Shown here in pieces: positions 11,970 to 54,141 of a DNA stretch of 64,000 nucleotides. Within the stretch, counting starts at the first letter, position 1; each line of letters begins with the position of its first letter. The stretch spans positions 6,518,412 through 6,582,411 of the forward strand of contig NZ_KB912942.1 of the NCBI RefSeq assembly GCF_000383915.1. The letters are read 5' to 3'. The translations under genes and the position numbers were made by a program. A model generated the notes under the pieces. It was not told where the DNA came from. It saw only the letters and a program-made list of their open reading frames with translations, and made no database searches. The DNA comes from Amycolatopsis benzoatilytica AK 16/65. GTDB taxonomy: Bacteria; Actinomycetota; Actinomycetes; Mycobacteriales; Pseudonocardiaceae.

Positions 11970-11970
11970 C

Positions 11971-13254: not shown

Positions 13255-13259
13255 CGCCG

Positions 13260-28440: not shown

Positions 28441-29455
28441 ATGGGTGACGATACACAGCTGACTGAATTCCTCGAGCGGGCAGCCAAGCAAGCGCATGGT
28501 TCACCTCCTTCGCTGACAGTCAGGGAACTCCTCGCGTACTGGGGTGCCAAGCGCCGAGGGATCTGGGTGGTTGATCGCGTACGACGGGACCTCGAAGAAT
28601 ACAAAACTGACCACTGACCCTGACTTCACCAGCGCGTGGATCGATTCGACGATCATTCTCCTTCGTCAGACAGCACTCATGCGTTCCCCCGACTCCGCGA
28701 CCGAGATCGCCGAAGAGGCGGACCTCGCCTTGCCCGACGTGGAGATGCGGGTCGGCCAAGTTCGATCGGCGAACGTCGACGTCGTCAGCGTGTCCCGCGA
28801 CGACAGCCTCGAGAAGGCCCGGACGCTCATGATGCGACACGACTTCTCTCAACTTGCTGTCATGTCCGGCAAGCGTGACCTGCTCGGTGCCGTGACATGG
28901 GAATCCATCGTCGACGCATTGCTCCGCAGTCCGGAGGCGACGGTGCGAGACGCGATGCGCTCCGCCGAAGTCGTGCCTGTCGAAGACAACCTCCTCGGCC
29001 GCGTGCAGCTGATCATGGATAAGGGGTTCGTCTTTGTGCGAGCCAAAGACCGGACCATCCAAGGAATCGTCACCACGACAGATCTGAGCCAACAGTTCGC
29101 CGATCTCGCCACCCCCTACTTCATCCTCGGAGAGATTGAGCAGCGCCTGCGCCGGAAGATCGACGATAAGTTCAGCAGCGAGGAGATCGCGTCTACCAAG
29201 GACCAGAACGACGCCGACCGCGAGATAAAGTCTGCAGCCGACTTGACACTAGGAGAATGTGCGCGTCTTCTCGAAGCACCCGCCAATTGGGAACGAATCG
29301 ACTGGAGAATAACTCGTTCCATCTTCATCGAACTCCTGCACAAGATACGGCAAGTGCGTAACGAGGTCATGCATTTCAGCCCCGACCCCTTGGAACCCGC
29401 GCAACTCGCCGATCTGGAGGACCTCGTCCGCTGGCTCCGGAAGCTAGAGCCGTGA
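28441..29455 (+). pseudogene. CBS-domain protein with a +1 frameshift at AAAA
   Basis: The ATG at 28441 opens a frame with LTVRELLAYWGAKRRGIWVV and RRDLEEYK, then stops at 28615-28617. In the next frame LTTDPDFTSAWIDSTIILL continues seamlessly from the AAAA at 28603-28606: skipping one A gives EEYK-LTTDPDF and a protein of about 337 residues. It carries tandem CBS domains (VDVVSVSRDDSLEKARTLMM and VVPVEDNLLGRVQLIMDKGF) and a C-terminal helical domain ending at 29455. CBS pairs bind adenine nucleotides. The short N-terminal domain resembles a winged helix. The shift could be a mutation, a sequence error or slippage; AAAA is short for programmed slippage. Confidence 0.7.
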
Positions 29456-29850: not shown

Positions 29851-31182
29851 TCAACTGACGCCTCCGGGCGGATAACCGTTGCGATCAAATTCGAGCGTGT
29901 CCGCGTTCCTGGCCATAAGGAGTCCGGCTAGATCGGTTATGCAAGAGCTTTCGGCGATGGAAAGCTGCGTGAAGCACATGACTCGGTTTTGTGGTGCCAG
30001 CCATGGGTTGCGCTGTTGGATAGCCGGTGGCGGCTGGCGGTCCAGGGCGGGGTAGGCGAGAGCGCCGAATTCTGCGTTGTGTGCGGCGAGGTAGGCGTTG
30101 AGCTGGTAGAGGTCTTCCCGATCAACCCCGCGACGGTCGTTGAGGGGCTTGTATTTGGCGTCAATGATTGCCGTTGGCTCCTCTGGAGCGCCGATGAGGA
30201 TGTCGGGGTAGAGACGGCCGAGCACCGCTGCGGGATGCCGAGCTGATCGCAGCAGCGGTGTCGGGACGTGGTGCTGGGTGCCGTGTGTGACGGGAAGCGT
30301 GGTTGCGCGGCGGGTGCAGTGGAGGAGGAACAGCTCCCACAGTTCGGCGACGTCGATGAGCAGGCCGTGTGTGCGTTCGTCGGTGGGTGACGCGTCCGGC
30401 GCGGTGTGCTGCACGATCTGCCAGGACAGGTCGGCCACGCGTTTGTAGGGCAACGTGATCGGGGTGTAGCGGACGCTGGCCAGGTCGCGGCGGCTCGGGA
30501 GGCGGGGGCGTCCGCCGACTGCCGTTCGCAGGCGCGGCACTATTTCGTCGACTCGGTCTCCCCGCCAGCCGGGCCGGTGGCGCAAGAGGGTGTCGAGTAC
30601 CTGGTCGGCGGCGACGATGACCTGGCTGACGGGGTTCCCGAGCAGCTTCGCTCGCTCGACCGAGGCCACGAAGGGGCTGCGGGCTGCGCGGAGCGCGACC
30701 GTTCCGGGCAGGTCGAGGCGTCCGCGTACCGCGGCGCCGACATGACGTTGGTGGGTCCGGAAGCTGGGCATGCCGTGGCGGGCGGCTGCGGTGAGCGCGG
30801 TGCGCCACAGCGCCGCTGTCAGCTCGGCGATGAGAGTGGAGCTGCCGCGTGCCTCGGCGGCTCGGGGGATGGTGTGCAGGTTGAGGGCGGCGCTGGCCCA
30901 GGCGGCGATGGTGTCGATGCCGAGCCGTGGCCGGATCTCCAGGATCCGGCCGTCGCGGCGGAGTTCTCCGACGTAACGGCCGGCGCGCCAGCTGCCGTCG
31001 AGTTGTCGCTCGAGGATGGGCTGCGGGTCTGCCGACGCGCAGGAGGGGGCAAGGTTCAGGGTGAACTGGTCGGGCCGGGTTTCGGCGGCCAGCAGGGTGA
31101 GCCATTGGTCTTCGTCCGGGGTGAAGGCCCGGTCGCGCTCGACGGGGCCGGCCAGGTCGGCGAAGACGATGCGCTCGTTCAT
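29851..31182 (-). CDS. mcrC: McrC-like nuclease subunit of a type IV (McrBC) restriction system
   Basis: The 443-residue protein overlaps mcrB by ATGA (31179-31182), the standard arrangement. The N-terminal half is the McrC binding domain (ILEIRPRLGIDTIAAWASAA). The C-terminal half has a PD-(D/E)XK nuclease core: LYPDILIGAPEEPTAIIDAK with the catalytic D and DAK, then YQLNAYLAAHNAEFGALAYP. McrC couples to the McrB motor and cleaves DNA containing modified cytosine. It is the last gene of the six-gene minus-strand run. Confidence 0.88.
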   Translation of the reverse strand: MNERIVFADLAGPVERDRAFTPDEDQWLTLLAAETRPDQFTLNLAPSCASADPQPILERQLDGSWRAGRYVGELRRDGRILEIRPRLGIDTIAAWASAALNLHTIPRAAEARGSSTLIAELTAALWRTALTAAARHGMPSFRTHQRHVGAAVRGRLDLPGTVALRAARSPFVASVERAKLLGNPVSQVIVAADQVLDTLLRHRPGWRGDRVDEIVPRLRTAVGGRPRLPSRRDLASVRYTPITLPYKRVADLSWQIVQHTAPDASPTDERTHGLLIDVAELWELFLLHCTRRATTLPVTHGTQHHVPTPLLRSARHPAAVLGRLYPDILIGAPEEPTAIIDAKYKPLNDRRGVDREDLYQLNAYLAAHNAEFGALAYPALDRQPPPAIQQRNPWLAPQNRVMCFTQLSIAESSCITDLAGLLMARNADTLEFDRNGYPPGGVS

Positions 31183-33011
31183 TGTCCGAGGAAGGCGCGG
31201 CGGAGGTGGTCCATCTGTTCGTCGCGGTCGTCGACGCCGGCGAGGTATTGCTCCAGCAGCGGTTTGAGCGAGCGGTTCCACAGATCGAGCAGCGGCGGCT
31301 GCGGCTGGTCGCGGGGCTGGCTCCACAAGTATCCGCCGTTGGCGGGGCGGTTCTTGCGCGTGCTCAGCCAAGTGCCGAGGAAGAAGACGATGTCCGCGAA
31401 ATAGGTGTGTCCGACGTGGTAGGCCCGGCCCAGCGCCGCTGATTCGGAGATCGCGGTGTTGAGCTGCTCGGCGTGGTCGGCGAAACGCGAGATCTGTTCG
31501 GCCGCATAGTCGTATGTGGTGCCGCGGACAGCGTCCGCCCAGCGATCCTGGATGATCTCCAGCAGCGTTTCGCGCTCGAACGGGCACTCGCGCCACAAGA
31601 ACCTGCGGCGCAACGCGAAGTCCAGCGTCTCCACCGACTGGTCGATCTCGTTCATCGTGCCGATCAGGTAGAGGTCCTTCGGCAGCTCGAGGGTCGCGGG
31701 CGGCTCGTCCGGGTTGATGCCGGGCAGCGTGACCGCGCGACCGCGCTGCCCGGCCTCGAGCAGGCTGAACGCCTCGCCGAACATCGCGCTCAGGTCGGTT
31801 CTGTTGATCTCGTCCAGCACCAGCACGACCGGCAACGCCGCGAGCCCCTCGGGCAGTCCCTGGCCGTGGTAGCGGTCGACGACGGCGGGCAGAAGCCCCG
31901 GGTGGTAGCGGGTGCGGTCGCCGTCGAGGCGCAGTCCGCGAATGAACTCCGGATAGCCGTACCCGGGATGCAGCTGCACCCAGAAGATGTTGGCCGCCAC
32001 AGTGGTCTCGACCAGAGCGGTGCGCTCGACGAAGTTCTTGAAGCCCCAGCGGTTCAGCGCCGCGCGGCGGATGATCGTCTCCGCGAGCCCCCGGGCCTGG
32101 TACGTCTTGCTGGTGCCCGGCGGCCCGTACAGCACAATCTGCTTCTTCCACTCCAGGGCCTCCAGATCCCCCGTCCCCTCCCCCGAGTCCCCGGCGCTCT
32201 CCCACGCGACGCGCAACGGCGGGTGGTAGAAGTCGATCGCCCGCCCCGGTGCATTGCCCTCCGGCATCAGCGTCGTCAGCTTGCCCCGGATCGCAAGCAA
32301 CCGCTCGTCGACGTCCAGACCGGGAGTCTCGGCCAAGTCGCCGAATGCCGCCGCGATCTCGCGCTTGTGCCGGCCCGAGGAGATGCGTTCGAAGGTCTGC
32401 GGATGCAGCAGGTGGAGCACGATGTGCCGCATCTCCCGCAGCGGCTTGTCCGTCTTGTCGGCGAAGTCGCGCAGCGCCCAGGCGTCCTTCAGGAGGACGG
32501 CGCGCTCGTCCGGGTCCAGCTGTTTGAGCCGCAGACAGAAGTCGATGAGATAGCCGACCTGAAGGTCCCGCCTCGTGTTGAAACCGACACCAGGATGGCC
32601 AATGCCTTGCCGCATCGCCCGCAACGGCACCGACTCCGGATCCAACGTCACCGTCGTGCCGGCCACCGTGCCGTTGAGGACATCAAGCTTGCCGCGGTAC
32701 GTCACCGAGCCGACGAACAGGAAGTGCACCAGCAGAACTTCGGCGGCCAACAGCACCAACTCCGGACTACCGTGTTCGAGCTGGATCGCCCACTTCCCGG
32801 CAAAAGTGCCGCCACCCTCACCGCTGACGAGCGGATTGCCGTTGAACCGCCGGTCGAGATCGCGAAGAAGATCGACCGTCCAAACGCCGTCACGCGACGG
32901 ATCCGTCAACGACCTGTCCTCGATCAGGCTGTGCTCGACCCACAGCCGAGCTGTTTCGTCCACCAGGTCTCGAGGTTGTTCGGAGAAACGTGCCACTGGG
33001 TCGACGTCCAA
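31179..33011 (-). CDS. mcrB: McrB-like AAA+ GTPase/ATPase motor
   Basis: The protein has up to 610 residues. The only upstream option before an in-frame stop is the TTG at 33011, with no strong ribosome-binding site, so the true start may be slightly internal. The N-terminal about 290 residues are a specificity domain of unknown ligand. The AAA+ core has Walker A LYGPPGTSKTYQ (about 301-312), Walker B VVLVLDEINRTDLS and the McrB signature LIGTMNEIDQSVETLDFALR. A 196-bp gap separates it from the helicase gene, so it may have its own promoter. With mcrC it should restrict modified DNA. Confidence 0.88.
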   Translation of the reverse strand: MDVDPVARFSEQPRDLVDETARLWVEHSLIEDRSLTDPSRDGVWTVDLLRDLDRRFNGNPLVSGEGGGTFAGKWAIQLEHGSPELVLLAAEVLLVHFLFVGSVTYRGKLDVLNGTVAGTTVTLDPESVPLRAMRQGIGHPGVGFNTRRDLQVGYLIDFCLRLKQLDPDERAVLLKDAWALRDFADKTDKPLREMRHIVLHLLHPQTFERISSGRHKREIAAAFGDLAETPGLDVDERLLAIRGKLTTLMPEGNAPGRAIDFYHPPLRVAWESAGDSGEGTGDLEALEWKKQIVLYGPPGTSKTYQARGLAETIIRRAALNRWGFKNFVERTALVETTVAANIFWVQLHPGYGYPEFIRGLRLDGDRTRYHPGLLPAVVDRYHGQGLPEGLAALPVVLVLDEINRTDLSAMFGEAFSLLEAGQRGRAVTLPGINPDEPPATLELPKDLYLIGTMNEIDQSVETLDFALRRRFLWRECPFERETLLEIIQDRWADAVRGTTYDYAAEQISRFADHAEQLNTAISESAALGRAYHVGHTYFADIVFFLGTWLSTRKNRPANGGYLWSQPRDQPQPPLLDLWNRSLKPLLEQYLAGVDDRDEQMDHLRRAFLGQ

Positions 33012-33207
33012 TCCGTGATGGGCCGTTGCCGCCGGTCACTGTACGAGACTCGTCGCCGCGACGGCAGATGCTGCGCGACGAGCCGATCTTGCTGAGATTT
33101 GGTGCTGCCACGCCACAGCTGCAGGCGGCCGTCCCGAACGGCACCACGCGTCCATCAGTACGGATCTCATTCATCAAGATCCGATCGCGGCAGCCGATTG
33201 CTGGCGA

Positions 33208-34554
33208 TCATGCCGCTACGCGGTGGCGTGCGAGCGTGGCCATCATGACTTGGTTGGCTTCCCAGCCGTCGGGGAATTTGGCGGGCACCGACAGGTGCAC
33301 GGGGTCGCTCGACGGGTGGCTGTCCAGGAGATCGGTGATTCCTTCGCGGGCGACGACGATGCACGACTGCCGGTGACGGGACGCCAGCACGCACAGCCGT
33401 CCGGTCTCCAGATGGAAGGCAGTGGCATCTCGGCGCCCGGACAGCGGATGCACGACGATCACGACCTCGAACTCCCGGCCCTGCAGTCGGTTGGCCGTGT
33501 CGACCGCGACTCCCGTGGCGTTCGGCCGGCCGCTGCGCGCCAGCGCGATCCGGACGAGGTCGGCCTGGTCGCGGTGGGCGACGCCGATCGCGATGTCGCG
33601 CGGTTCCAGAACTCGCCCATCGGCGTGGCGTTCGCAGGTGCCCACCGCTCCGCGGTCGAGGAGGCGGACGGCGAGGTCGGCAGCGGTCTGGATCGTCTCG
33701 CTGTCGGTGCGGGGCACGTGACGCCGCGGCAATTCGTGCAGTGCCCAGCCGGTGGTGAAGGCCATCGTCAAGGTCTCGTCCAAGGCGGAGTTGCCGAGAC
33801 TTCTCGTGCGGAACTCCAGAGAACGTGCGCCTTCTGCGGTGCCAGCGGTGAATCCGGTGAACGGGTAGAACGCCCGGGAGACGGTGGGAGCGGCGGTCGC
33901 CGGAAGGCGCCACGACACGGGCAGCCGGTGCACGGGAGTGTCCGGGTTGTGCTCCAGCATGACGGTGACGCCGTTTTGGGTCGGGTCGTGGGGAAGGCCG
34001 ACCCATCGCTCGGTGCCGACGATGGTGAACGGGTCCAGCTGCCCCGGGTCGCCCACGAACAAGCCGCGGTCGAACCGCTCGACGATCTGCAGCAGCATGT
34101 CCGATCGCATCTGGTACGACTCGTCGAGGATCGCCCATCCGAACGCGGTGTCGCGGACGGTGGCCCATTTGGCGGAGGTTCCGACGATGATCCCGCAGTG
34201 GGCGAGGTCCGTGGCGCGGTTGGCGACGGTTGTGTTCGCGAGGGCATCGACGGCCGGCGGTGCGCTGTAGGAGGAGGCGCTCAGTCGGCCGATCGTGGTG
34301 TCCGGATGTGCAGCGGCGAGTCGTACGAGCAGGTCGTCGACTTGGTTGTTGGTCTGGGCGATGATGATCGGCCGCTCGCCGCCGTCGAGGAGGTCTCCGG
34401 CGGCGCGGACGACCAAGGTGCTCTTGCCCGCGCCGGGAGGCGAGTCGACGACCACCGCCCGGTGGTCGGTCCGTGCGAGGTCGGCCAGGATCGCGTTGAC
34501 GGCCGTCTCGGCCGCCGATGCCGGGTCGGGCCCGGCGGTGCTGTCAGTTGTCAT
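33208..34554 (-). CDS. SF1 helicase, Upf1/AAA_12-like
   Basis: The 448-residue protein starts at ATG 34554, overlapping the upstream gene by 11 bases. Motifs are in order: I VVDSPPGAGKST, Ia IIAQTNNQVDDLLVRL, II GWAILDESYQM, III FVGDPGQLDPF, IV LPVSWRLPATAAP, V TANRLQGREFEVVIVV and VI LCVLASRHRQ. It is compact, without the large 1B/2B insertions of UvrD. DNA unwinding or remodelling is expected. It is in a tight operon with a Cas4-like nuclease and two unknown proteins. Confidence 0.85.
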   Translation of the reverse strand: MTTDSTAGPDPASAAETAVNAILADLARTDHRAVVVDSPPGAGKSTLVVRAAGDLLDGGERPIIIAQTNNQVDDLLVRLAAAHPDTTIGRLSASSYSAPPAVDALANTTVANRATDLAHCGIIVGTSAKWATVRDTAFGWAILDESYQMRSDMLLQIVERFDRGLFVGDPGQLDPFTIVGTERWVGLPHDPTQNGVTVMLEHNPDTPVHRLPVSWRLPATAAPTVSRAFYPFTGFTAGTAEGARSLEFRTRSLGNSALDETLTMAFTTGWALHELPRRHVPRTDSETIQTAADLAVRLLDRGAVGTCERHADGRVLEPRDIAIGVAHRDQADLVRIALARSGRPNATGVAVDTANRLQGREFEVVIVVHPLSGRRDATAFHLETGRLCVLASRHRQSCIVVAREGITDLLDSHPSSDPVHLSVPAKFPDGWEANQVMMATLARHRVAA

Positions 34555-36076
34555 CGCCCCACTCCTCGGCAGCGGCTTCAGCGGCGGATGCGGGATCCGC
34601 GGATTCTGCGTCTTCCGCGTCGCCGGCGTGTGTCCACGGGATGCTGCTCGTGTCCGGGAAGACGGGTGTCGGGCGCCAGCCGGGGTCGGGCAGGTAGGCG
34701 ACGCTGTCGCCCACGGCGGGCACGGTTCCCGGCTTCGGGACGCGGGCACGGCCCATGCCGCCGGTGACCTCCACCGTGACCAGGCTCGCCTCGCCGTCGC
34801 GGACGGTGGAGACGATCACGGCTTTGTGTCCGGGCGGCATCGAGGGGCTGATCAGCGTGAGGTCGTCGGCCAGCCGGACAGGGTCCGGGGTGCGGACTGT
34901 AACGCGCGGCCGCGGGACACGCCGGTTCGCTTGGGTAGTGACGACCCTGTCGGGCTCGGCTTCCACGACGACTCCGGCGAACGCCTCGCCGAGGCTGCGC
35001 AGGTCGGCCAGGACGTAGGGATCGTCGAAGGCCGTGTCCGCTTCGAAGTCGGCGAGCGCGCGCTCCAGCCGGTTCAGCCGCCGCGCAGCCCCGATCGCGC
35101 CGTCCCGTTTCGGCTGCGGCCGGGCCTCGGCGGAATCCTGGTAGTCGGAGTAGTCGGTGAACAGGCCGCAGTCGCGGTCGAAACGCGCTGCGGCGCGCGG
35201 CGCTTCGGGCACGCCGCGCAGCAGCGCAATCGCCGTCCACATCAGACGCCAGGTCGGCTTGAGCTGGTCGCCGACCAGGTCGCGCAGGTGGGTGCGGGCG
35301 TCGGCCAAGGCCTGCTCGTCACCGGCAGTGCGCGCAGCATCGAACTTCTTGATTGCCGGCGCGAGGTAGGTGTTGTCGAACTCCGGAGACGTCGCAGGCC
35401 CGGCAGGCGGGCACAGGACGGGATTCTCCGCATTGGCCATGGCTTGGTGGACGGACTGCCCGTGCGGGGGCTCGATCCAGGCCATCAGCGAAGCAAGGTT
35501 TTGGTCCTCCAGCGCGCTTTGGCCGGTGGCCCAGTGCTCGCTGAGCAGGCCCGTGACGGGCAGCAGCATCGAGGTGCCCGCCTGCTCGGCGGTGTCGACC
35601 AGGAAAGTCAGCCATTTCCCGAGTTCGGGGACGACGGCGGGCACCGGGTACGGGCCGGTCGCACTGCGGAACCGGCACATCCGGCCCAAGTCGCGCAGCG
35701 CCTTGATCCCGCCCGGGTTGGGGACCAGGATCTGCGGGGCGGCGCTGTACCGGGAACGCCGTTCCTCGCCCCGGGAGGGGATGTCGACACGGTCCTGGCG
35801 GCAGGAGTCGATGTAGTGCATCACGATCCGGCCGAGTTCTGCGGCGAACGCGAACCGCTGGTCCCGGTTGCGCGGCTGGCCGACGACCAGCAGGGTCGGC
35901 GATCTCCTGGCGTCGCCGACCAGCGCCGCCAGCGGGGCGCCCGCCTCGCCGGCCATGGTCAGCGGCACCATCACCAGCGGCCGGTCGGACAGGCGCCGGT
36001 GCCGGAAGCGGGTCAGCTCCCTGGCCTCCATCGCTTCCATCGCCTCCAGGTGCGCCAGCGCCGACACCCGGCTCAT
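34544..36076 (-). CDS. Unknown 510-aa protein of the helicase/nuclease operon
   Basis: The gene starts at ATG 36076 in an ATGA overlap with the nuclease gene and overlaps the helicase by 11 bases, so it is tightly coupled on both sides. The N-terminal part (MVPLTMAGEAGAPLAALVGD, SPTLLVVGQPRNRDQRFAFA) alternates strands and helices. The middle is helical. Residues about 390-470 look like small beta domains (LISPSMPPGHKAVIVSTVRD, ASLVTVEVTGG). An acidic Ala/Glu/Asp-rich tail follows. No ATPase or nuclease motif is visible. I do not recognise the family. It may recognise or bridge the DNA substrate for its partners. Confidence 0.75.
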   Translation of the reverse strand: MSRVSALAHLEAMEAMEARELTRFRHRRLSDRPLVMVPLTMAGEAGAPLAALVGDARRSPTLLVVGQPRNRDQRFAFAAELGRIVMHYIDSCRQDRVDIPSRGEERRSRYSAAPQILVPNPGGIKALRDLGRMCRFRSATGPYPVPAVVPELGKWLTFLVDTAEQAGTSMLLPVTGLLSEHWATGQSALEDQNLASLMAWIEPPHGQSVHQAMANAENPVLCPPAGPATSPEFDNTYLAPAIKKFDAARTAGDEQALADARTHLRDLVGDQLKPTWRLMWTAIALLRGVPEAPRAAARFDRDCGLFTDYSDYQDSAEARPQPKRDGAIGAARRLNRLERALADFEADTAFDDPYVLADLRSLGEAFAGVVVEAEPDRVVTTQANRRVPRPRVTVRTPDPVRLADDLTLISPSMPPGHKAVIVSTVRDGEASLVTVEVTGGMGRARVPKPGTVPAVGDSVAYLPDPGWRPTPVFPDTSSIPWTHAGDAEDAESADPASAAEAAAEEWGDDN

Positions 36077-37224
36077 CGGGTCTCTCCTGCCGTGGGGGCG
36101 GAGGCGGTCAGTTCGGCCCGGAGCCGGGCGGCGTGGCGCAACGCCGCGGCCATCTCGATCTGGTCGTCGTTGGGCGTCAGCGTCCCGCGGGCGAGGCCGA
36201 GGGCCATGGTGGCGGTGTCGATGCCGCCGAGGTGCTCGCGCACCGCCGGCCCGAGCACGTCCAGCGATCGGTCGTCCCGGGCGCGCGAGCGGCAGTAGAA
36301 CGCCATCTCGCAGTGGTTGAGGCAGTCCGGGAAGTAGGTTGCCGGCACCTGGTCGAGCGCGTCGGCCAGCTCCTGCGCCGGGCGCGGACGTCCGGCGGCA
36401 TCGTCGGCGAGGTCGAACGTCAGGTCGTCGGGCAGGAGCTCGAGCAGGTCGCCGATGCGCTCGATCCGGTCCAGCTGCCGGGTCAGAGTGGCGACCTGCT
36501 TGCGCGCGTCGACGAAGGCCCCGGTCGGCCGGTTGGTGAAGTCCTTGGGCGCCACCAGCACGATCGTCTCGGATACCGCATCGGGTCCGATGCCGTCGTC
36601 GGCGAGCATGGCTCGCAGCGCGATGATGTAGGCGCACGCCTGGGTCGTGGCGGACCGCACCTGCGCCGGATCGGCTTGCCCGTCGATGATCGGGAAGCTC
36701 TTGATCTCCACGATGTGGAAACGGTCGCCGATGCGGAAGGCCACGAGATCGGGTTCGAGGAACACCGGCAGCCCGCCGACGACCAGCCGCAGCATCGGGT
36801 GGTCGTAGAGGGTGTCGCTCCCGCGGCCTCGCGCGGCGGCGGTCAGCAGTTGTGCGGTGCGCGTGTGGCGGGTTTCCGACCGGCCGTCGCCCCCGACGTC
36901 GTTGAGGTCCTGATAGCCGACTTCGGGCAGGGTGAGCCGAAGGGTCTCCCGGAGGACGCGCAGCAGTTCGGCGCAGCCGTTGGCTTTGACCATGGCCTCG
37001 AAGGCGTTGCCGCGGGCGATCGCGAAGGAAGACTGGCCGAACGGGGCGGGGTATCCGGCGTGAGCGGCGATCGCGGATTTGTCGGCGCCGCTCGCGTCCA
37101 GCACGGCCCGCAGCGCGCAACGGGGGTTGTTCTCCAGCGCCGCCAGCGTTCGCGCGTTGTGGTTGACGCGGGGTGTGGCGGGGCCGCGCAGCGCGTCCAG
37201 GCGCCGTTCAGGGGCTGCTTTCAC
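36073..37224 (-). CDS. Cas4/AddB-like PD-(D/E)XK nuclease with a probable Fe-S cluster
   Basis: The 383-residue protein starts at GTG 37224. It has the RecB-family signature GNAFEAMV (about 71-78) and a nuclease core EPDLVAFRIGDRFHIVEIKS containing the catalytic Asp and E-x-K. Later motifs include QACAYIIALRAML. Cys36 (ENNPRCALRA) together with Cys301, 305 and 311 (CLNHCEMAFYC) reproduces the split four-cysteine iron-sulfur staple of Cas4 and AddB. It should resect or trim DNA ends. It is second in the operon and overlaps the 510-aa gene by 4 bases. Confidence 0.78.
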   Translation of the reverse strand: MKAAPERRLDALRGPATPRVNHNARTLAALENNPRCALRAVLDASGADKSAIAAHAGYPAPFGQSSFAIARGNAFEAMVKANGCAELLRVLRETLRLTLPEVGYQDLNDVGGDGRSETRHTRTAQLLTAAARGRGSDTLYDHPMLRLVVGGLPVFLEPDLVAFRIGDRFHIVEIKSFPIIDGQADPAQVRSATTQACAYIIALRAMLADDGIGPDAVSETIVLVAPKDFTNRPTGAFVDARKQVATLTRQLDRIERIGDLLELLPDDLTFDLADDAAGRPRPAQELADALDQVPATYFPDCLNHCEMAFYCRSRARDDRSLDVLGPAVREHLGGIDTATMALGLARGTLTPNDDQIEMAAALRHAARLRAELTASAPTAGETR

Positions 37225-37273
37225 GGTGTTGGGTTCCTTGTGGTGGTGCGACGGGATGTCGTGCGGCGTGGGT

Positions 37274-38128
37274 TCAAGCTTCGGCCTGCCGGCGTCGGAC
37301 GTCCTGCAGCGACGCGCCGAACAGTTGCTGGTCGTCGGTGAGCTGCTTGCGGGCGCGGCGCGCGGATTCGGCTCGGGTAGCGCGGTCGCTGTCGGCGTGC
37401 ACGTCCAGCTCGGCGCGGGCCGCGAGGATGACCTGGTTCGGGTCTGGCGTGCCGCTGCCCGCGGCCCGGTCCGTGCTCGTGGCGCCGGGGATGTTCACGG
37501 CGAAGCGCCACAGCAGTCGCATCGCCGCCGGGCCGGGCTCGGCCCCGGATGCTCCGGACGCGGCGATCACGGCCTCGGCGATGCGGATGGCCCTGGCGAG
37601 GAAGTCGACCCGAGGCGACAACGGGCCGATGATCCGCTGTTCCAAGACCCAGGTGCTGATCGTGACGAGCGCCCGGGCCGGGGACAGCAAGTCGTGGGTC
37701 AGGGCAGGACACAGGTAGTAGGGCCGGGCGCCCGGTGCGCTGCGGTAGGAGCGCTCCTCGTCCCGGCGCAGGCTCGACAGCTTGGACGCAGACAGCTCTC
37801 CCGGGAAGAACGCTTCGTGGACGCCGACGATGAGTTTGGGCGCGGCGGGGGTTTGAAGAAGCATCAATGCCCGATGGACGTGCTCGCGCGCCGGCAGCAT
37901 CGCCCCCGGCGCGGCCCGCGGGTGCACCAGCGCATCCGCAGGCTCGACGGTCGTCGGCGCCGCGGGCGGGGCATCGGTGTCGACCAGGGCGTCCCAGGCC
38001 CGTTCGGCACGGCGGAGCTGCGCCCGCAATTCGCCGGCTCGCTCGGCGTCGCCGCCGACGGCTGCATCGCGGATCGCGCGCCGCAGCTCGGCGATGCTCT
38101 TCTCCAGCACGTCCAGCGGATCGCTCAT
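37274..38128 (-). CDS. Unknown 284-aa protein opening the helicase/nuclease operon
   Basis: ATG 38128 lies 7 bases after GGTAGGG, better placed than a GTG two codons upstream. An N-terminal coiled coil (LEKSIAELRRAIRDAAVGGD, AERAGELRAQLRRAERAWDA) is followed by a helical domain (APKLIVGVHEAFFPGELSAS, RALVTISTWVLEQRIIGPLS) and a charged C-terminal helix. There are no catalytic motifs. I do not recognise the family. As first gene behind the repeated operator it could regulate the divergent units or recruit SbcCD. Confidence 0.7.
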   Translation of the reverse strand: MSDPLDVLEKSIAELRRAIRDAAVGGDAERAGELRAQLRRAERAWDALVDTDAPPAAPTTVEPADALVHPRAAPGAMLPAREHVHRALMLLQTPAAPKLIVGVHEAFFPGELSASKLSSLRRDEERSYRSAPGARPYYLCPALTHDLLSPARALVTISTWVLEQRIIGPLSPRVDFLARAIRIAEAVIAASGASGAEPGPAAMRLLWRFAVNIPGATSTDRAAGSGTPDPNQVILAARAELDVHADSDRATRAESARRARKQLTDDQQLFGASLQDVRRRQAEA

Positions 38129-38146
38129 GAACACACCCTACCAGAG

Positions 38147-38176
38147 TTCCAGAAGATTCCAGACTTTTCCTGAAAG
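38147..38176. promoter_or_regulatory. Three phased 10-bp TTCC repeats in the divergent sbcDC promoter region
   Basis: TTCCAGAAGA (38147-38156), TTCCAGACTT (38157-38166) and TTCCTGAAAG (38167-38176) follow each other without gaps, exactly one helical turn apart. They lie in the 129-bp gap between starts at 38128 (minus) and 38258 (plus), where they could control both the six-gene minus-strand run and sbcDC. The binding protein is unknown. Confidence 0.6.
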
Positions 38177-38257
38177 ATCGTGTACGGTGGTCGGCACCAC
38201 CCCTCTCCGATGCGGCCTCGTTCGCCCCGACGCCGCCACTCCGCTGGGAGGCATCCC

Positions 38258-39574
38258 ATGACGGGACGCGTGTTCCACACCTCAGACTGGCACCTCGGCC
38301 GGCAGATCGGCCGACACCGCCGCGACGCCGAGTTCGACGCGGTCCTGACCGAAATCGTCGAGATCGCCGCGGACTTCTCCCCCGACCTGATCGTGCACAG
38401 CGGCGACCTGTTCGACGGGCGCCCGACCCTGGACGACGTGCGCCGCGCAGCCGCCGCGCTGCGCCGCCTCGGGGAGATCGCTCCGGTGGTCGTCGTCGCC
38501 GGGAATCACGACACCGCCTACGTCCTGGGGTTCTTGGACTACTTCCTCACCGACATGGGACATCGGTCCGGCGACCAGGCCCGGGTGCGCTTCGCCACCG
38601 ACGCCCGCCCCGATCGGCTCCTGGTCGACGAGTATCCCGCCGACGACGGCAATCTGACCCTGCGCATCGGCGCGCTCCCGTACCTGCACCCCAACCGCTT
38701 CGCCTACGACTTCGCCGACCCCGCCGCGGCGACCGCCAGCTACGCCGAGCGGATCCGCGCCGTCCAGGCCGACGTCTACCGCCGGCTCACCGCCGACCGC
38801 GGCCGACGCGACCTCCTGGTTTTCGCCGCACACCTGTTCGTCGAAGGCGCCACCCCCTCCTACTCCGAACGACCGGTCTCCATCGCCTCCGACTACGCCG
38901 CTGCTGCCGCCGACCTCCCAGGCGTCGACTACGGCGCCCTCGGCCACATCCACAAACCCCAGCCCGTCGACCGTGCAGGCTTCCCCGCGCGCTACGCAGG
39001 CAGCCCGCTGCAGCTCGACTTCGGCGAAACGCGCGACACCAAGAGCGTTGTGCTCGCCGAGATCGCACCGGGCGAACCACCGCGAATCGAGCTCGCACCG
39101 CTGACCTCCGGCCGCCAGCTGATCAACCTGACCGGGACGCTGGACGAGATCGCGCAGCGCGCCGACCGCGTCGGCGACGCATGGGTGAAAGCAGTGGTGA
39201 CCGTCGACAGTCCCACACAGATGCTGTCGGAGACGCTGGCCGCGATGCTGCCGCAGGCGACCGTCGTCAGCATCGAGGAACGCCGCCCCGGAGCGGAGAA
39301 ACTGGTCCTCGACCGCGAAACCTCCGCCACCGAACTGCCCACTGTCGAACAACTCCTGCACGAGTACCTAGCCGGACGGGGCGTCGCCGGGCCGGCGCTC
39401 GACCACGTCATGTCCACCCTCGCGGACGTGCAGGCCGAGCCAGATCCCGACGATCCTGCCCCCTGTTGCGAGGAGAAACTGTTGAGCGCCGCCATCGTCG
39501 GAGAAGGATTCGACAGCGTCGACCGCGCCGGCCTGCTCATCGACGCACGGGCCCACCAGGAGGAGGCGCGATGA
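38258..39574 (+). CDS. sbcD: SbcD-like (Mre11-family) exonuclease subunit
   Basis: ATG 38258 follows TGGGAGG by 6 bases. The 438-residue protein has all Mre11 phosphoesterase motifs: FHTSDWHLGRQ (Asp10, His12), IVHSGDLFDGRPT, VVVAGNHDTAYVLG, and later FAAHLFVEGA and DYGALGHIHKPQ. A C-terminal capping domain follows. With SbcC it forms an ATP-dependent end-processing nuclease that removes protein-blocked or hairpin ends. It overlaps sbcC by ATGA. Linkage to a helicase/nuclease operon suggests an accessory defence copy, not the housekeeping pair. Confidence 0.9.
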   Translation: MTGRVFHTSDWHLGRQIGRHRRDAEFDAVLTEIVEIAADFSPDLIVHSGDLFDGRPTLDDVRRAAAALRRLGEIAPVVVVAGNHDTAYVLGFLDYFLTDMGHRSGDQARVRFATDARPDRLLVDEYPADDGNLTLRIGALPYLHPNRFAYDFADPAAATASYAERIRAVQADVYRRLTADRGRRDLLVFAAHLFVEGATPSYSERPVSIASDYAAAAADLPGVDYGALGHIHKPQPVDRAGFPARYAGSPLQLDFGETRDTKSVVLAEIAPGEPPRIELAPLTSGRQLINLTGTLDEIAQRADRVGDAWVKAVVTVDSPTQMLSETLAAMLPQATVVSIEERRPGAEKLVLDRETSATELPTVEQLLHEYLAGRGVAGPALDHVMSTLADVQAEPDPDDPAPCCEEKLLSAAIVGEGFDSVDRAGLLIDARAHQEEAR

Positions 39575-42500
39575 AACCCGTCGAACTGTCCTTGACCGGC
39601 TTCCGCAGCTATCCGAACCCGGTGACTGTCGACTTCACCGGCAAGAGCCTCGCCGCTGTCCTCGGCGACACCGGAGCCGGCAAGAGCAGCCTGCTGGAGG
39701 CCATCAGCTTCGCGCTGTTCCGGAAAAGCTCGTGGGGAGGCAACGAAACCCGCCAGCTCATCGCCGACACCGCCGACGCCATGAGCGTCACGCTCACCTT
39801 CCAGCACGACGGATCCCGCTGGCGCGTGGACCGGACCATGCACGCCACCAACCCCAACGCCGGACGCCACCACCTGGTCAACCTCGACACCGGCCAGGAA
39901 TACGACGGCGCCGGCCCCGTCGACGCCCGCATCAAAGCCGTGCTGCAGATGGGTTACGACACCTTCCTGCGTGTCGGGCTCCTGCCCCAGGGCAAATTCG
40001 ACCAGCTCCTCACCGCGCCGCCGAGGGAAAGGACCACGCGGCTGCGGGAACTGTTCGGAGCCGACGCCCTCAACACCGTCCAACAGAGCGCCGCACGCCG
40101 TTGCCTCAGCCTCACCGACCTGCTCAAGGGCGCGGAGATCAAGCGCGCTGCCATGCCGGGCAATCCGGCACAGGCCGCCGCAGCAGCCGATGCCGCCGCT
40201 CAGACCGCCGAAGCCGACGCCCGTCGTCTGGACGACGCCCTCACTGGGATGACCGCGCTGCAGAAGCAGGCAACCGGCGCCGCCACCGCCGCGAACACCG
40301 TCGACCGCGCCGCCCGGGCCCTGGCCGACCAGGCCGTTCCCGACGCCGAGTCCGTCCTCGACGGGCTCGAGCCCGTCATCGCAGGCATAGCCGCACGCCG
40401 TGAATCCCTGGACCTCCGCGCCTACGAAGCCGCGAAACGGAACCGCGAGCTCACCGAAAAGATCGACGACCTCGATGCCCGAGGCGAAGGCCGGGACGCG
40501 CTCATCAAGGCAGCTGCGATCATGGAAAACCTCGCCGCTCGCGCGGAGGAACACCGGGCCGAGCGCGACCGGCTCGCCGCCGTCGACGAACAACTCGCAC
40601 GCGACGCCGAATCCATTGCGACCACCGAGAGGCAGCTGGCAAAGCGCGCCGAGCAGGCCGAACCCCTCGCCGAGGCCGCCCGCACCGCCACCACGCTGAG
40701 CCGGCAGATACGCATCCAAGGCGACCGCGCACGCTCCCGCGTCTCCGCGGCGACTCTCGCCGCCCAGCAGGTCGCCATCGCGGCCCGAGCCGCCACCACT
40801 GCCCGAGGCAACGTCGAAGCCGCTCTAGCAGCCCTCACGGCAAGCAAAAACGAGAACACCGGTGCGGAAGAGGCCGTCACCGCCGCCGAACACCACCTCG
40901 AGGCGGTCCAGCTGCGCAACCAGGCGGCCAGCATCGCCAGCGACGTGCACCCCGGCGACGACTGCCCCGTCTGCCGGCGGCAGCTGCCCGCCGACTTCGA
41001 GCCCGAAGCCGCAAGCGAAGCCGCCCTCGACACCGCGAAAACCCAGCTCCGCAATGCAAAGGCCAAACAGAAGACGGCTGCGCGCAAGCTCGCGGACGCC
41101 GAATCAGCCCTCGCCGCCGACGAAACCGCGGTGTCTACCAGCGGCACAGAGCACGAGAAGAGTCAGCGGGCCGCGCAGCGCGCCACCGAGGAAGCCGCAC
41201 AGATTCTTGCCGACTTTGCTTCCCTGGCCGCCGAAGCCGGGAACGCCTTCGACTCCGGCGTCGCGCGCGCGACCCTGACCGGGGCGACCGCAGCGCTCAC
41301 CACGCACCCGGACACCAGCGCTCCCACTCCTGAATCCCTCACCGAGCCCGTCATCACCGCCCTCGCCGCAGCCGAAGAAGCCGCAGCCGACCGCGCCGAG
41401 CAGCTGCGCGAATCCGCCATCCGTCACACCGCCGCCATCGACGCCGACCGCGTTGCACTGAACAAACAGAAAACCGTCCACCACAACGCGGTCAATGACG
41501 CTCAGGCAGCCTCGACACGACAGAAGCGCGCCGCAAGCCGCATGGCCCGCGAGATGCGCGCACTGCCCGACCGGATCCAGACACTCCTGCCAGGTGACGC
41601 AGTCGACGTCACCGCAGCCGACGCCGACGCCGCACATAAGACGATCGCCGCTCTGCAGACCGCGGTCCAGCGCCTGCTCGACGAGAGGGACGAGACGAAG
41701 ACTGACGCGGCCGCGGTTCTCGCCGAGCAGCGCGCCCTGGACACGGAGGCCCGGACCGCCGCGGACGAACCCCTCAATACGCTGCGCACACGCCTGAATG
41801 CCTGTGCGAACGCCGCCAACCAGGCCGTTACGCACCTCCCTGGCACCAGTCGGGACCGAGTGCCTGTCGCTGTGGCGGAGACCGACGTCACTGAGCTCCG
41901 GGTGTTCGCGAAGACGCTGGCGACCGCTGTTGCGGCTATGGGCAGCGAGCTGGCCGAAACCCACGCTGCACACCTGGCCCAGGCACACGACGCGGAAACA
42001 CGACTCCGCGAGCTGGCCGCGGAGCTGGCCGACGTCGACGGCTTTGCTCCTGCCGACGACCTGACGGACCCGCAACTGCTGCACCCGCTCGTCGCAGCCC
42101 TGGCGACAGCCACCAAGGAGGCCGAGGTCCAGCGCGCCGCGCAGAACGCGGCGCAACACCACATCAAACCGGCCGCAGACCTGGACTTCGCTATTTCCGC
42201 CGGTCAAGCACGCCTGAACGCACTCAGCGTCCTGCGGACCGAACTCGTCGACGCCAAGTTCCTGCGCCACCTCACCGCGTTGAACACGCGAACGTTGCTG
42301 GGCATCGCAAGCAACAATCTTGGGCTGCTGACCGACCAAAGATTCGGCTTCAGCGACGGCTTCGAGATCGTCAGCCGCGGCTCCGGCGTCGCCCACACCC
42401 CCAACCGGCTCTCCGGCGGCGAGAAGTTCCTGGCTTCCCTCGCTCTCGCCCTGGCCTTGGCGGAACTGCACTCGCACAGCGGTCCTCGCCTCGGCTCACT

Positions 42501-42753
42501 GTTCCTCGACGAGGGCTTCGCCGCCCTCGACACGACGGCGCTGCAATCCGCCCTGGAAGTGCTCCGCACCCAAGCTGGAGGCGACCGCCTCGTCGTAGTG
42601 ATCAGCCATCTCCATGCCGTCGCCGAGGCAGTCGACGACGTGCTGTGGGTCGAGCGCGGCCCCGCCGGCTCCTTGGCGCGCTGGATGACGCCGCCCGAAC
42701 GAGACCGACTCGTCCAGGCCGACGTGGCGAGCGGCCTGCAGACCCTGGCGTAA
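39571..42753 (+). CDS. sbcC: SbcC-like (Rad50-family) SMC ATPase subunit
   Basis: The 1060-residue protein starts in the ATGA overlap at 39571, with AGGAGG just upstream. It has Walker A VLGDTGAGKSSLLEA (about 30-44), a Q-loop region VGLLPQGKFDQLL, a long coiled coil with a zinc hook CPVC (in GDDCPVCRRQLP, about residue 465), signature LSGGEKFLASLALALA, and Walker B LGSLFLDEGFAALD. It is complete for the family. It tethers DNA ends and gates SbcD nuclease. Confidence 0.9.
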   Translation: MKPVELSLTGFRSYPNPVTVDFTGKSLAAVLGDTGAGKSSLLEAISFALFRKSSWGGNETRQLIADTADAMSVTLTFQHDGSRWRVDRTMHATNPNAGRHHLVNLDTGQEYDGAGPVDARIKAVLQMGYDTFLRVGLLPQGKFDQLLTAPPRERTTRLRELFGADALNTVQQSAARRCLSLTDLLKGAEIKRAAMPGNPAQAAAAADAAAQTAEADARRLDDALTGMTALQKQATGAATAANTVDRAARALADQAVPDAESVLDGLEPVIAGIAARRESLDLRAYEAAKRNRELTEKIDDLDARGEGRDALIKAAAIMENLAARAEEHRAERDRLAAVDEQLARDAESIATTERQLAKRAEQAEPLAEAARTATTLSRQIRIQGDRARSRVSAATLAAQQVAIAARAATTARGNVEAALAALTASKNENTGAEEAVTAAEHHLEAVQLRNQAASIASDVHPGDDCPVCRRQLPADFEPEAASEAALDTAKTQLRNAKAKQKTAARKLADAESALAADETAVSTSGTEHEKSQRAAQRATEEAAQILADFASLAAEAGNAFDSGVARATLTGATAALTTHPDTSAPTPESLTEPVITALAAAEEAAADRAEQLRESAIRHTAAIDADRVALNKQKTVHHNAVNDAQAASTRQKRAASRMAREMRALPDRIQTLLPGDAVDVTAADADAAHKTIAALQTAVQRLLDERDETKTDAAAVLAEQRALDTEARTAADEPLNTLRTRLNACANAANQAVTHLPGTSRDRVPVAVAETDVTELRVFAKTLATAVAAMGSELAETHAAHLAQAHDAETRLRELAAELADVDGFAPADDLTDPQLLHPLVAALATATKEAEVQRAAQNAAQHHIKPAADLDFAISAGQARLNALSVLRTELVDAKFLRHLTALNTRTLLGIASNNLGLLTDQRFGFSDGFEIVSRGSGVAHTPNRLSGGEKFLASLALALALAELHSHSGPRLGSLFLDEGFAALDTTALQSALEVLRTQAGGDRLVVVISHLHAVAEAVDDVLWVERGPAGSLARWMTPPERDRLVQADVASGLQTLA

Positions 42754-43156: not shown

Positions 43157-43393
43157 GTGCCTGACCGCTGGCTGCCTGCCGATAACACACAACTCACTCC
43201 GGCATTACGAAAGACCAGGTTTACGCGTGGATCGAGGAGCAGAGCTAGCGAGGTCGATGAGTGGTTCGCGAACCAGGCGGCGTGGCTTCGTCGGATGAAG
43301 GAGCCTCTCACGGTGATCAGTGAACCGCCTGCCGAGGCGATCACCGGACGCCAACTTTCCGACTCTCCCAGCACCGAGACGCTCGCTCTATGA
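43157..43393 (+). CDS. Small protein (78 aa) coupled to brxA
   Basis: GTG at 43157 follows GGAGG by exactly 8 bases, and the stop overlaps the brxA start (ATGA at 43390-43393), so the gene is firmly part of the BREX operon. The product is basic and helical in the middle (LTPALRKTRFTRGSRSRASE, VDEWFANQAAWLRRMKEPL) with a flexible C-terminus. It is not one of the six canonical BREX components and I do not recognise it. It could be a regulator or an accessory factor such as an inhibitor or DNA-binding partner. Confidence 0.65.
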   Translation: MPDRWLPADNTQLTPALRKTRFTRGSRSRASEVDEWFANQAAWLRRMKEPLTVISEPPAEAITGRQLSDSPSTETLAL

Positions 43394-44019
43394 GCGCCCC
43401 GCTGTCGGCCGTCCGGCCGTATGAATTGTCGTTCACTGCTGGCGCCCTCTTGTCCCGCGAGAGTGCGCTGCTCGCGGCCGTATACCTCAAGCAACCGGAC
43501 TGGCACCGGGTCCGCGAGCATGCGATGGGACACAACCTGCTCCAGGCGCGGACCGGCAGCACCGGAGTGCGGCTGGTTCGCGAGACCGTGAAGCGGCTCT
43601 CCACGCTCTCCGACCACGAAGTCAAGCTCCTGACCGAGGCGACAGCCTCGGAGCGCGGACACCTCATGTGGGCCGCTGCTTGCCGCCGCTACGAGCTCAT
43701 CGGCGAGTTTGCCGAGGAGGTCTTGCGAGAGCGCTTCCTGCTCCTGGCCTCGACGCTGGAACACCAGGACTTCGACAGCTTCGTCCGGACCAAGGCGCTG
43801 TGGCATGACGAGCTGGCCGAGATCAAGAATTCGACGATGCAGAAGCTGAGGTCAAACGTGTTCAAGATGCTCCGGGAGGCCGAGCTGCTGTCGGATGCTG
43901 GGCTAATCAGGCCGGCTGTGCTGTCCAAGCAAGTCGTTTCCGCCCTCAACGACCACAGGCCGAGCGATTTGAGGTTCTTCCCGACACGGCAGACAGCAGT
44001 GCAGGGGGGTGCGCGGTGA
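43390..44019 (+). CDS. brxA: BREX type I protein BrxA (DUF1819)
   Basis: The 209-residue protein matches the DUF1819 family in length and pattern: YELSFTAGALLSRESALLAA at the start, then LLTEATASERGHLMWAAACR and RSNVFKMLREAELLSD. BrxA is a small helical DNA-binding protein of type I BREX. It is coupled upstream to the 78-aa gene and downstream to brxB (GTGA overlap). Confidence 0.92.
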   Translation: MSAPLSAVRPYELSFTAGALLSRESALLAAVYLKQPDWHRVREHAMGHNLLQARTGSTGVRLVRETVKRLSTLSDHEVKLLTEATASERGHLMWAAACRRYELIGEFAEEVLRERFLLLASTLEHQDFDSFVRTKALWHDELAEIKNSTMQKLRSNVFKMLREAELLSDAGLIRPAVLSKQVVSALNDHRPSDLRFFPTRQTAVQGGAR

Positions 44020-44615
44020 TCCCGAAGACTCTGCCGCAGCAGGAAGACCACCTGTTCGCGGTCCTCAGCGGCAAGCGGTTCCTGCAGATGGAGGGCCTGA
44101 GCAACGAAGTCCCGTTCTTCATCTACCCATACCCGCCGGAGGACGCGCTCGCTGTCGCGGCAGCTAAGAAGCGGATCAAGAACCGTCTGTCCAACGCCGG
44201 GATCCGGGTCTTCGAGGTCAACCTCTATGACCTGTCGGTTGATCTGCTCAAGGAGCGGGGCGACTGGGACGAAGTGCTCGAAGTTGAGCCATCCCTGGAC
44301 AAGTCAGAGTTCACGGAGATGCTGCAATCGATGCTCAACCCTCAACTGTGCCTGGCCCCGGCTATCCGGGAGCGCCTCGCGCAGGTCGAGTTCGAGATCT
44401 TCTTCCTCACCGGGATCGGTGAGGTCTTCCCGTACATCCGCTCGCACAACATGCTGAACAATCTGCAGTCAGTGGTCAAGGACAAGCCGATGCTCATGTT
44501 CTTCCCCGGCCGCTACGACCAGTCGGCCACCTTGGGCTCATCGCTCGTGCTGTTCGGTCGGCTCAAGGACGACCAGTATTACCGAGCCAAGGATATCCGG
44601 GAACAGGAGGCGTGA
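44016..44615 (+). CDS. brxB: BREX type I protein BrxB (DUF1788)
   Basis: The 199-residue protein starts at GTG 44016 within the brxA stop. DUF1788 features include VPFFIYPYPPEDALAVAAAK, VNLYDLSVDLLKERG and the ending MLMFFPGRYDQSATLGSSL. BrxB is essential for BREX modification and defence in studied systems and is thought to scaffold the complex. Length is normal. Confidence 0.92.
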   Translation: MIPKTLPQQEDHLFAVLSGKRFLQMEGLSNEVPFFIYPYPPEDALAVAAAKKRIKNRLSNAGIRVFEVNLYDLSVDLLKERGDWDEVLEVEPSLDKSEFTEMLQSMLNPQLCLAPAIRERLAQVEFEIFFLTGIGEVFPYIRSHNMLNNLQSVVKDKPMLMFFPGRYDQSATLGSSLVLFGRLKDDQYYRAKDIREQEA

Positions 44616-44620
44616 GCTCG

Positions 44621-54127: not shown

Positions 54128-54141
54128 GGAGGGAAGCTGGG

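Follow-up and report, generated by a model that had tools for sequence, protein, structure and literature searches.

The window, that is, the whole 64,000-nucleotide stretch that was analysed (6518412-6582411 of the 8.70-Mb single-contig genome of Amycolatopsis benzoatilytica AK 16/65), contains six genes on the minus strand that diverge from an sbcD-sbcC pair on the plus strand. A preliminary description, made from the letters alone, proposed that all eight act as one machine that recognizes and degrades DNA ends. We found the eight open reading frames at the coordinates and on the strands that it gave, with the 129-bp divergent gap between them. Below, u284 denotes the 284-aa protein, nuc the Fe-S nuclease, u510 the 510-aa protein and hel the helicase. 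In positions of the window, the features are:

29851-31182, minus strand: mcrC, nuclease subunit (Pfam McrC PF10117, E 8.8e-27); a neighbour, outside the core
31179-~33011, minus strand: mcrB, AAA+ subunit (Pfam AAA_5, 4e-13); a neighbour, outside the core
33208-34554, minus strand: hel, SF1B (Upf1/DNA2-like) helicase with RecA1 and RecA2 only (Pfam AAA_12/AAA_11, 2e-8/1e-7)
34544-36076, minus strand: u510, with a predicted exonuclease-like N-terminus and a barrel/stalk C-terminus (fold model)
36073-37224, minus strand: nuc, Fe-S ('iron-staple') RecB-family nuclease (motifs)
37274-38128, minus strand: u284, all-helical orphan, candidate adaptor (30-row alignment, weak AF2 model)
38129-38257, no strand: divergent control region with a conserved TACCAG..TCCAGA..TCCAGA element
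38258-39574, plus strand: sbcD, Mre11-type nuclease (Pfam Metallophos and SbcD_C; NCBIfam TIGR00619 above cut-off)
39571-42753, plus strand: sbcC, Rad50-type ATPase (Pfam SMC_N and SbcC_Walker_B; motifs)
43390-56250, plus strand: complete, type-1-like BREX (PADLOC BrxA 1.6e-72, BrxB 9.3e-66); a neighbour

The gene arrangement itself hints at a division. The expectation that most junctions overlap by 4-11 bases held for four of the six (nuc/u510, mcrB/mcrC and sbcD/sbcC by 4 bp each, u510/hel by 11 bp) and failed for the other two, where gaps separate u284 from nuc (49 bp) and hel from mcrB (196 bp). The latter gap, measured to an ambiguous mcrB start (TTG at 33011 or GTG at 32996), already sets mcrBC apart from the rest. 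Since the database holds at least 860 homologues of u510 at E <= 1e-3 and at least 1355 of nuc, these genes are not chance open reading frames. The eight genes are real, yet they form two units: a six-gene core, in which u284, nuc, u510 and hel diverge from sbcDC, and a separate mcrBC pair.

Among the database homologues of u510 that were listed, the closest named ones are from Amycolatopsis. In a separate scan of named bacterial genomes with a u510 alignment, 543 relatives were found, of which we retained the best 80. Genes in the relatives' loci were called by a simple script, and these loci were searched by tblastn with all window proteins. The u284-nuc-u510-hel set was found repeatedly outside the window genome, and, as the preliminary description had anticipated for a true module, it recurs with sbcDC beside defence genes, in these cases without mcrBC. 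In the u510 tree, one side of a branch with an SH-aLRT of 100, which we call clade A, holds the close relatives. Among its loci L004-L022, the set diverges from sbcDC in 18 of 19, the exception being L016, in which u284 and sbcDC were undetected. Our counts below use 26 clade-A loci, which exclude the window, L013 (the same strain as L012), two clade-A-like fragments in G011, and L184, L185 and L186, which branch elsewhere; L006 and G1015, L010 and G960, L015 and G921, and L017 and G045 were treated as identical and counted once each. All six core genes were detected in 24 of the 26, with L016 and G851 (without sbcC) as the remainder, and in L097 sbcC and sbcD look broken.

Of the eight genes, mcrB and mcrC have the features of McrBC, an McrB AAA+ subunit and an McrC nuclease subunit, and both score under the NCBIfam equivalog cut-offs. 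They lie beside the core only in the window: tblastn found neither at the other loci searched, which mostly extend about 10 kb on each side of u510. Further defence genes surround the core in this strain. The BREX genes stand in the order brxA, brxB, brxC, pglX, pglZ, brxL, as in type 1, co-directional with sbcC and 636 bp downstream of it. Left of the module, a CBS-domain protein scores above the cut-off of the NCBIfam model for DS-11, an anti-phage protein that is described in a passage of PMC13092281.

The recurrent partner of the core is Wadjet. Using PADLOC on flanking proteins, Pfam, and tblastn with the Jet proteins so identified, we found Wadjet next to 24 of the 26 clade-A loci, as follows:

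type I (13 loci): L005, L008, L009, L011, L012, L015, L016, L018, L020, L021, G031, L097, L098
type II (5 loci): L004, L006, L017, G862, G851
type III (6 loci): L007, L010, L014, L022, G263, G913

Of these 24 Wadjets, 23 are co-directional with the gene at the module's edge and begin 3-225 bp from it (measured between aligned ends), 15 of them after hel and eight after sbcC; the L007 Wadjet has the reverse orientation and a distance of 1146 bp. Each of the two loci without Wadjet is informative. L019 retains residues 1-133 of the nuclease, without its active site, and u510 from residue 90 on; in G918, the contig runs out where sbcC ends, and the slot downstream is therefore not visible there. 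The PADLOC flank scans used E <= 1e-10 (two scans, 1e-5), and that of the accessory loci covered 94 of 130 proteins chosen from 353 non-module open reading frames, with 25 of 142 families listed.

More distant relatives behave differently. In the 61 loci L023-L083, which carry the four genes, sometimes with a co-directional sbcDC, or, in many Micromonospora, nuc and u510 only, tblastn gave Jet matches in two, L043 and weakly L059. A PADLOC scan of the called proteins that immediately flank such loci (115 of 116 proteins; 25 of 81 families listed) added one JetA2, and as its locus is unnamed in the output, we give the Jet count as at most 3 of 61. Among the families listed, mad2- and mad3-like proteins are the commonest near these distant loci (14 and 11), and there are single cases of other systems. 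The comparison of 24/26 with at most 3/61 yields a Fisher p of 5e-16, a value that ignores relatedness. Jet matches also occur at L184 and L186.

The linkage between module and Wadjet is thus strong, and close relatives of the module in other actinomycetes usually adjoin Wadjet. In a Streptomyces-like genus, only 7 of 199 genomes had a type-I JetA above its family cut-off, which makes coincidence an implausible account of the adjacency. On one quick u510 tree, parsimony requires about nine changes of Wadjet type, compared with a mean of 9.9 for shuffled labels, of which 306 of 1000 sets were as low as nine. The type changes are therefore no fewer than for random labels, which means that the partner's type has been exchanged while the pairing has been kept.

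In the window itself, tblastn with type I-II queries and type III JetA/JetC found no Jet genes. The window genome does have a type-I Wadjet about 98 kb downstream of hel, in the same orientation (hel stop at C1:6551619, JetA start at C1:6453555), with a weak match for JetD and, for JetB, no more than an open reading frame of the right size. In the u510 tree, the window groups with G031, G263 and L019, and in G031 a type-I Wadjet follows 76 bp after hel. The two loci share 84% identity in hel, 82% in u510, 84% in nuc, 78% in u284, 74-77% in sbcD and 59% in sbcC, and the distant Wadjet is similarly close to that of G031 (JetA 84% and JetC 80% identical). In the window, the two slots are taken by mcrBC, behind hel, and BREX, behind sbcC. 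Homology with G031 ends at the hel stop codon and at the JetA start, so Wadjet was likely separated from the module later in this genome. An attempt to place the junction of an insertion that would part hel from the distant JetA was rejected: the short spacer is unconserved, and no junction can be drawn.

What might such a module do next to a DNA-cutting system? Three of its proteins look like a nuclease-helicase of the DNA2/Bad type that has been divided into subunits. In nuc, 90 of 91 aligned rows have the expected residue at each of 11 iron-staple and RecB positions (C36, EPD157-159, E173/K175, Q195/Y199 and C301/C305/C311 here). By motif, nuc accordingly has what characterizes the DNA2/Bad nuclease, namely RecB motifs and four Fe-S cysteines that span the domain, and from the conserved cysteines it looks like a protein with an Fe-S cluster. 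A PDB sequence search with the nuc profile was discarded, as it returned only designed repeats and noise. The hel protein starts at RecA1, with PPGAGKST at residue 39, and its key motif positions are conserved in 70-71 of 71 rows. Its AAA_11/AAA_12 domains, its PDB sequence matches (SMUBP-2 at 5e-6, DNA2 at 0.01) and an hhalign probability of 99.6% to the C-terminus of the fused TIGR03491 proteins identify it as an SF1B motor of the Upf1/DNA2 group.

In the predicted model of u510, the N-terminus has the exonuclease-like fold of family-B polymerases, and the C-terminal barrel and stalk resemble the 1B/stalk of Sen1, senataxin and IGHMBP2. On this model, u510 may supply a split helicase with its 1B/stalk part and also have an exonuclease-like fold. 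The preliminary description had proposed both proteins of unrecognized family as specificity factors; for u510 the predicted fold points to the helicase part instead, which leaves u284 as the only candidate adaptor in the module. The domain order of DNA2 is colinear with the gene order nuc-u510-hel. DNA2 and Bad are single polypeptides, and here there are three overlapping genes, so we say that the trio would work like DNA2, not that it is DNA2. We also considered that the trio is a split TM0106/TIGR03491 enzyme by descent. With hhalign, nuc and u510 reach a probability of 0.1% against the fused proteins, and NCBIfam gives no match; hel is the only one with a profile match, and we retained the functional analogy alone.

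The module's sbcDC is an extra Mre11-Rad50 pair, its sbcD being one of three SbcD matches in the window genome: sbcD has the nuclease motifs of a metallophosphoesterase, and sbcC has Walker A, a CPVC zinc hook, the signature and Walker B, as expected of a Rad50-type ATPase. The u284 protein has an N-terminal helical pair (residues 4-50) and, at about residues 97-145, a possible winged-helix region; its 30-row alignment contains 51 invariant columns. A fold search with its weak AF2 model (pLDDT 69.6, pTM 0.55) was set aside, since the matches resemble helical-bundle background. The phased repeats that had been noted in the divergent gap survive in part: a repeat finder reported no direct repeat of at least 8 bases there, and short CCAGA/CCTGA units spaced by 8-10 bases are visible by eye. 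Across 26 aligned intergenic regions, including that of the window, TACCAG is present in 24, and the TCCAGA-like unit after it is conserved, which fits a conserved divergent control region.

A further branch of the u510 family is a core locus. Homologues of u510 occur in 187 of the 199 genomes of the Streptomyces-like genus, and the nine core loci of this genus that were compared are syntenic and contain nuc and hel; u284 and sbcDC were undetected at these nine, and none of 89 chosen flanking proteins matched any PADLOC family at 1e-10. Elsewhere, u510 matches are sparser: 12 of 297 genomes of the window's family, 76 of 393 of its class, and, among 149 genomes drawn from across the phylum, five, all within the class. 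The window genome also holds a distant paralogue (L003), whose u510 is 46% identical. The six-gene module is mobile. Two Streptomyces plasmids carry it, with annotated Wadjet genes directly after, and two of the accessory copies are close to the ends of their contigs, at 7 and 15 kb. A phage origin was also considered and rejected, as phage records contained no u510 relative and none was confirmed in viral contigs.

Given that close relatives usually adjoin Wadjet, the module probably processes DNA that such neighbouring defences cut, and it is these neighbours that suggest a defence role for it at all. With moderate confidence, we read the core as a private DNA-end processor, made up of SbcCD and a three-subunit DNA2-like enzyme with u284 as a possible adaptor, that accompanies a DNA-cutting defence, normally Wadjet. 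A broader statement, which we offer more tentatively, is that Wadjet plasmid immunity may have a second stage in many actinomycetes, a dedicated counterpart of the eukaryotic MRN-DNA2 resection machine, with a three-part DNA2, that would take over the ends left by Wadjet and is freely swapped among types I, II and III. In such a pathway, Wadjet would cut a circular plasmid, as published for Wadjet elsewhere; SbcCD would take hold of the ends and open them; and the split DNA2 would load, track along the exposed strand and cut it, so that the DNA is resected or destroyed ahead of resealing by end joining. The enzymatic activities, the formation of a complex and a dependence of Wadjet on the module are putative parts of this scheme. 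McrBC makes double-strand cuts. As it occupies the slot in the window strain, where Wadjet is 98 kb off, McrBC may also feed the module there, a speculative extension from one case.

Other functions would also account for part of these observations. The module could serve self-protection, by resecting ends for recombination and so repairing the host's own chromosome where Wadjet or McrBC has broken it. AddAB- and DNA2-type machines resect double-strand breaks, according to passages of PMC7430649, and the near-universal trio of the same family in the Streptomyces-like genus suggests repair. Yet of the seven genomes with a type-I JetA among the 199, six have no clade-A module, and in these the core trio could make such repairs without one; we regard self-protection as unlikely. 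Ranking below it, and in our view doubtful, is an independent anti-phage or anti-plasmid system that shares islands with Wadjet but is not functionally coupled to it. Such a system would be at home beside the BREX, McrBC and DS-11 genes of the window, and the distant modules adjoin Hma-like, RM-like, mad2/mad3-like, DpdF-like and other defence proteins. A system that simply lived in defence islands would be expected to have varied neighbours in clade A too, however, and there Wadjet is present in 24 of 26 loci, 23 times co-directionally at one of two fixed slots, even as three types are exchanged.

It is improbable that the module is an accessory copy of a housekeeping repair enzyme, found near Wadjet only because both ride linear plasmids and chromosome arms. 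The abundance of the u510 family in Streptomyces-like genomes, its nuc and hel companions at the nine syntenic loci compared, and the two copies close to contig ends would fit this origin, but the accessory copies carry u284 and sbcDC, which were undetected at the nine core loci, and the constancy of Wadjet's slot and orientation points to joint expression. Most improbable of all is the single eight-gene machine of the preliminary description, with McrBC as a modified-DNA motor. In its favour, the next gene after hel in the window is mcrB, in the same orientation; the 196-bp gap, the lack of mcrBC at the other loci searched, and a slot that is usually Wadjet's stand against it, and as a general system it is largely refuted. 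We thus retain the processor of DNA ends produced by a neighbouring cutter, normally Wadjet, as our preferred reading.

Wadjet cleaves circular DNA, and the passages of PMC10586767 and PMC12904381 that describe this do not say what becomes of the DNA once it is cut. A partner specialized in processing the ends would, if our reading is true, explain how a topology-sensing cutter is lethal for its target. Streptomyces reportedly has end joining (PMC5124664), which might reseal a single cut. If true, the module would also provide a split, experimentally tractable bacterial DNA2-Mre11-Rad50 system. The unnamed nuc-u510-hel trio in nearly all sampled Streptomyces-like genomes points, separately, to an unstudied and probably repair-related enzyme.

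The preliminary description knew of no named system with this composition, and our searches agree. No PADLOC family matched u284, nuc or u510 at E <= 0.01, no NCBIfam model matched any of them, and Pfam gave no match for nuc and sub-threshold matches only for u510 and u284. A search of open-access literature found no description of the module or of its Wadjet link. The nearest likeness is to DNA2 and Bad, which share with the module an Fe-S iron-staple RecB-family nuclease, with four cysteines, and an SF1B helicase; passages of PMC7430649 describe Bad as a Geobacillus stearothermophilus helicase-nuclease that is sporadic in bacteria and lies beside a methyltransferase. The module differs in its three genes, its own SbcCD and u284, and its link to Wadjet. 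The fused TIGR03491 (TM0106-family) RecB/RNase_H_2/helicase proteins, two matches to which occur in the window genome, have the same order of activities, with a Cas4-like nuclease, an exonuclease-like fold and an SF1B motor, but u510 does not evidently have the exonuclease D-x-E motif that inspection by eye shows in the fused protein, and nuc and u510 lack a profile match to the fused proteins. With Mre11-Rad50/SbcCD the module's pair has the main motifs in common, including the zinc hook, whereas its divergence from DNA2-like genes sets it apart from the usual SbcCD. Hachiman, Gabija and Mokosh likewise pair a helicase with a nuclease, and hel has weak domain-level PADLOC similarity to MkoA/MkoC; these systems differ from the module in nucleases, gene sets and neighbours. 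Wadjet (JetABCD) is adjacent and co-directional in 23 of the 26 clade-A relatives, but the module contains none of JetA-JetD, and is thus a neighbour of Wadjet and not Wadjet. As a whole, the six genes resemble the Mre11-Rad50 and DNA2 proteins that trim DNA ends in humans and other eukaryotes, with DNA2 in separate subunits: the parts are of known kinds, and the split, the combination and the link to Wadjet appear to be new.

A trio of genes, namely nuc (Fe-S nuclease), u510 and hel (SF1B helicase), occupies a conserved chromosomal site at nine syntenic core loci (L171-L178 and L183) of the Streptomyces-like genus of G671, and u510 homologues are present in 187 of 199 sampled genomes of this genus. 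The core trio goes by no name in the family libraries searched; it probably represents a repair enzyme that is core to Streptomyces but has so far gone unstudied.

Relatives of the module also lie outside clade A, the group closest to the window's module. Two such loci, L184 and L186, branch off at a distance but share the divergent arrangement of six genes seen in the window, and restriction-modification-like proteins of 749/970 aa adjoin hel there. With tblastn, type I JetA-D matches were found at L184 and a type III JetC match at the edge of L186. At L185, a relative of u284-nuc-u510-hel stands beside HmaA-like and PprPDDEXK-like defence proteins, and tblastn did not find sbcDC at this locus.

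For the more distant loci L023-L083, we scanned the nearest called protein on each side of the module (n = 115, E <= 1e-10) with PADLOC models. Among the matches listed, mad3 was matched by 14 and mad2 by 11 of these 115 neighbours, while models for DpdF, BrxH, SngC, PsyrT, type IV RM and type I RM accounted for one or two cases each. The mad3 matches may reflect generic SMC/SbcC similarity. These neighbours may represent a second partnership of the module. Some Micromonospora loci, L026 and L029 among them, have nuc-u510 with no hel or u284 recognisable nearby by tblastn.

The window's island, judged by eye, carries several mobile-element genes; a candidate defence gene in the window and an integrase-like ORF outside it were also noted:

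Window 28544-29455, plus strand: match above cut-off to NCBIfam NF053863, CBS-domain anti-phage protein DS-11 (CBS plus HEPN)
Window 21888-23947: IS21-like gene pair, left side (by eye)
Window 57489-59243: large serine recombinase, right side (by eye)
Window 62631-63986: IS21-like transposase, right side (by eye)
L241 (the same genome's type-I Wadjet locus) 11763-13280, minus strand: 505-aa ORF, site-specific integrase-like by eye, directly upstream of type-I jetA

The L241 ORF could be part of whatever parted Wadjet from the module. In one plasmid-borne clade-A copy (L097, plasmid NZ_CP027023), the sbcC/sbcD stretch (208-2251) is annotated as several short ORFs, and this copy therefore looks broken.

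The window's genome also holds a distant second version of the module, L003 (G000:C1:6976000-6995900), in which u284 and sbcDC are co-directional, whereas those of the window's module are divergent.
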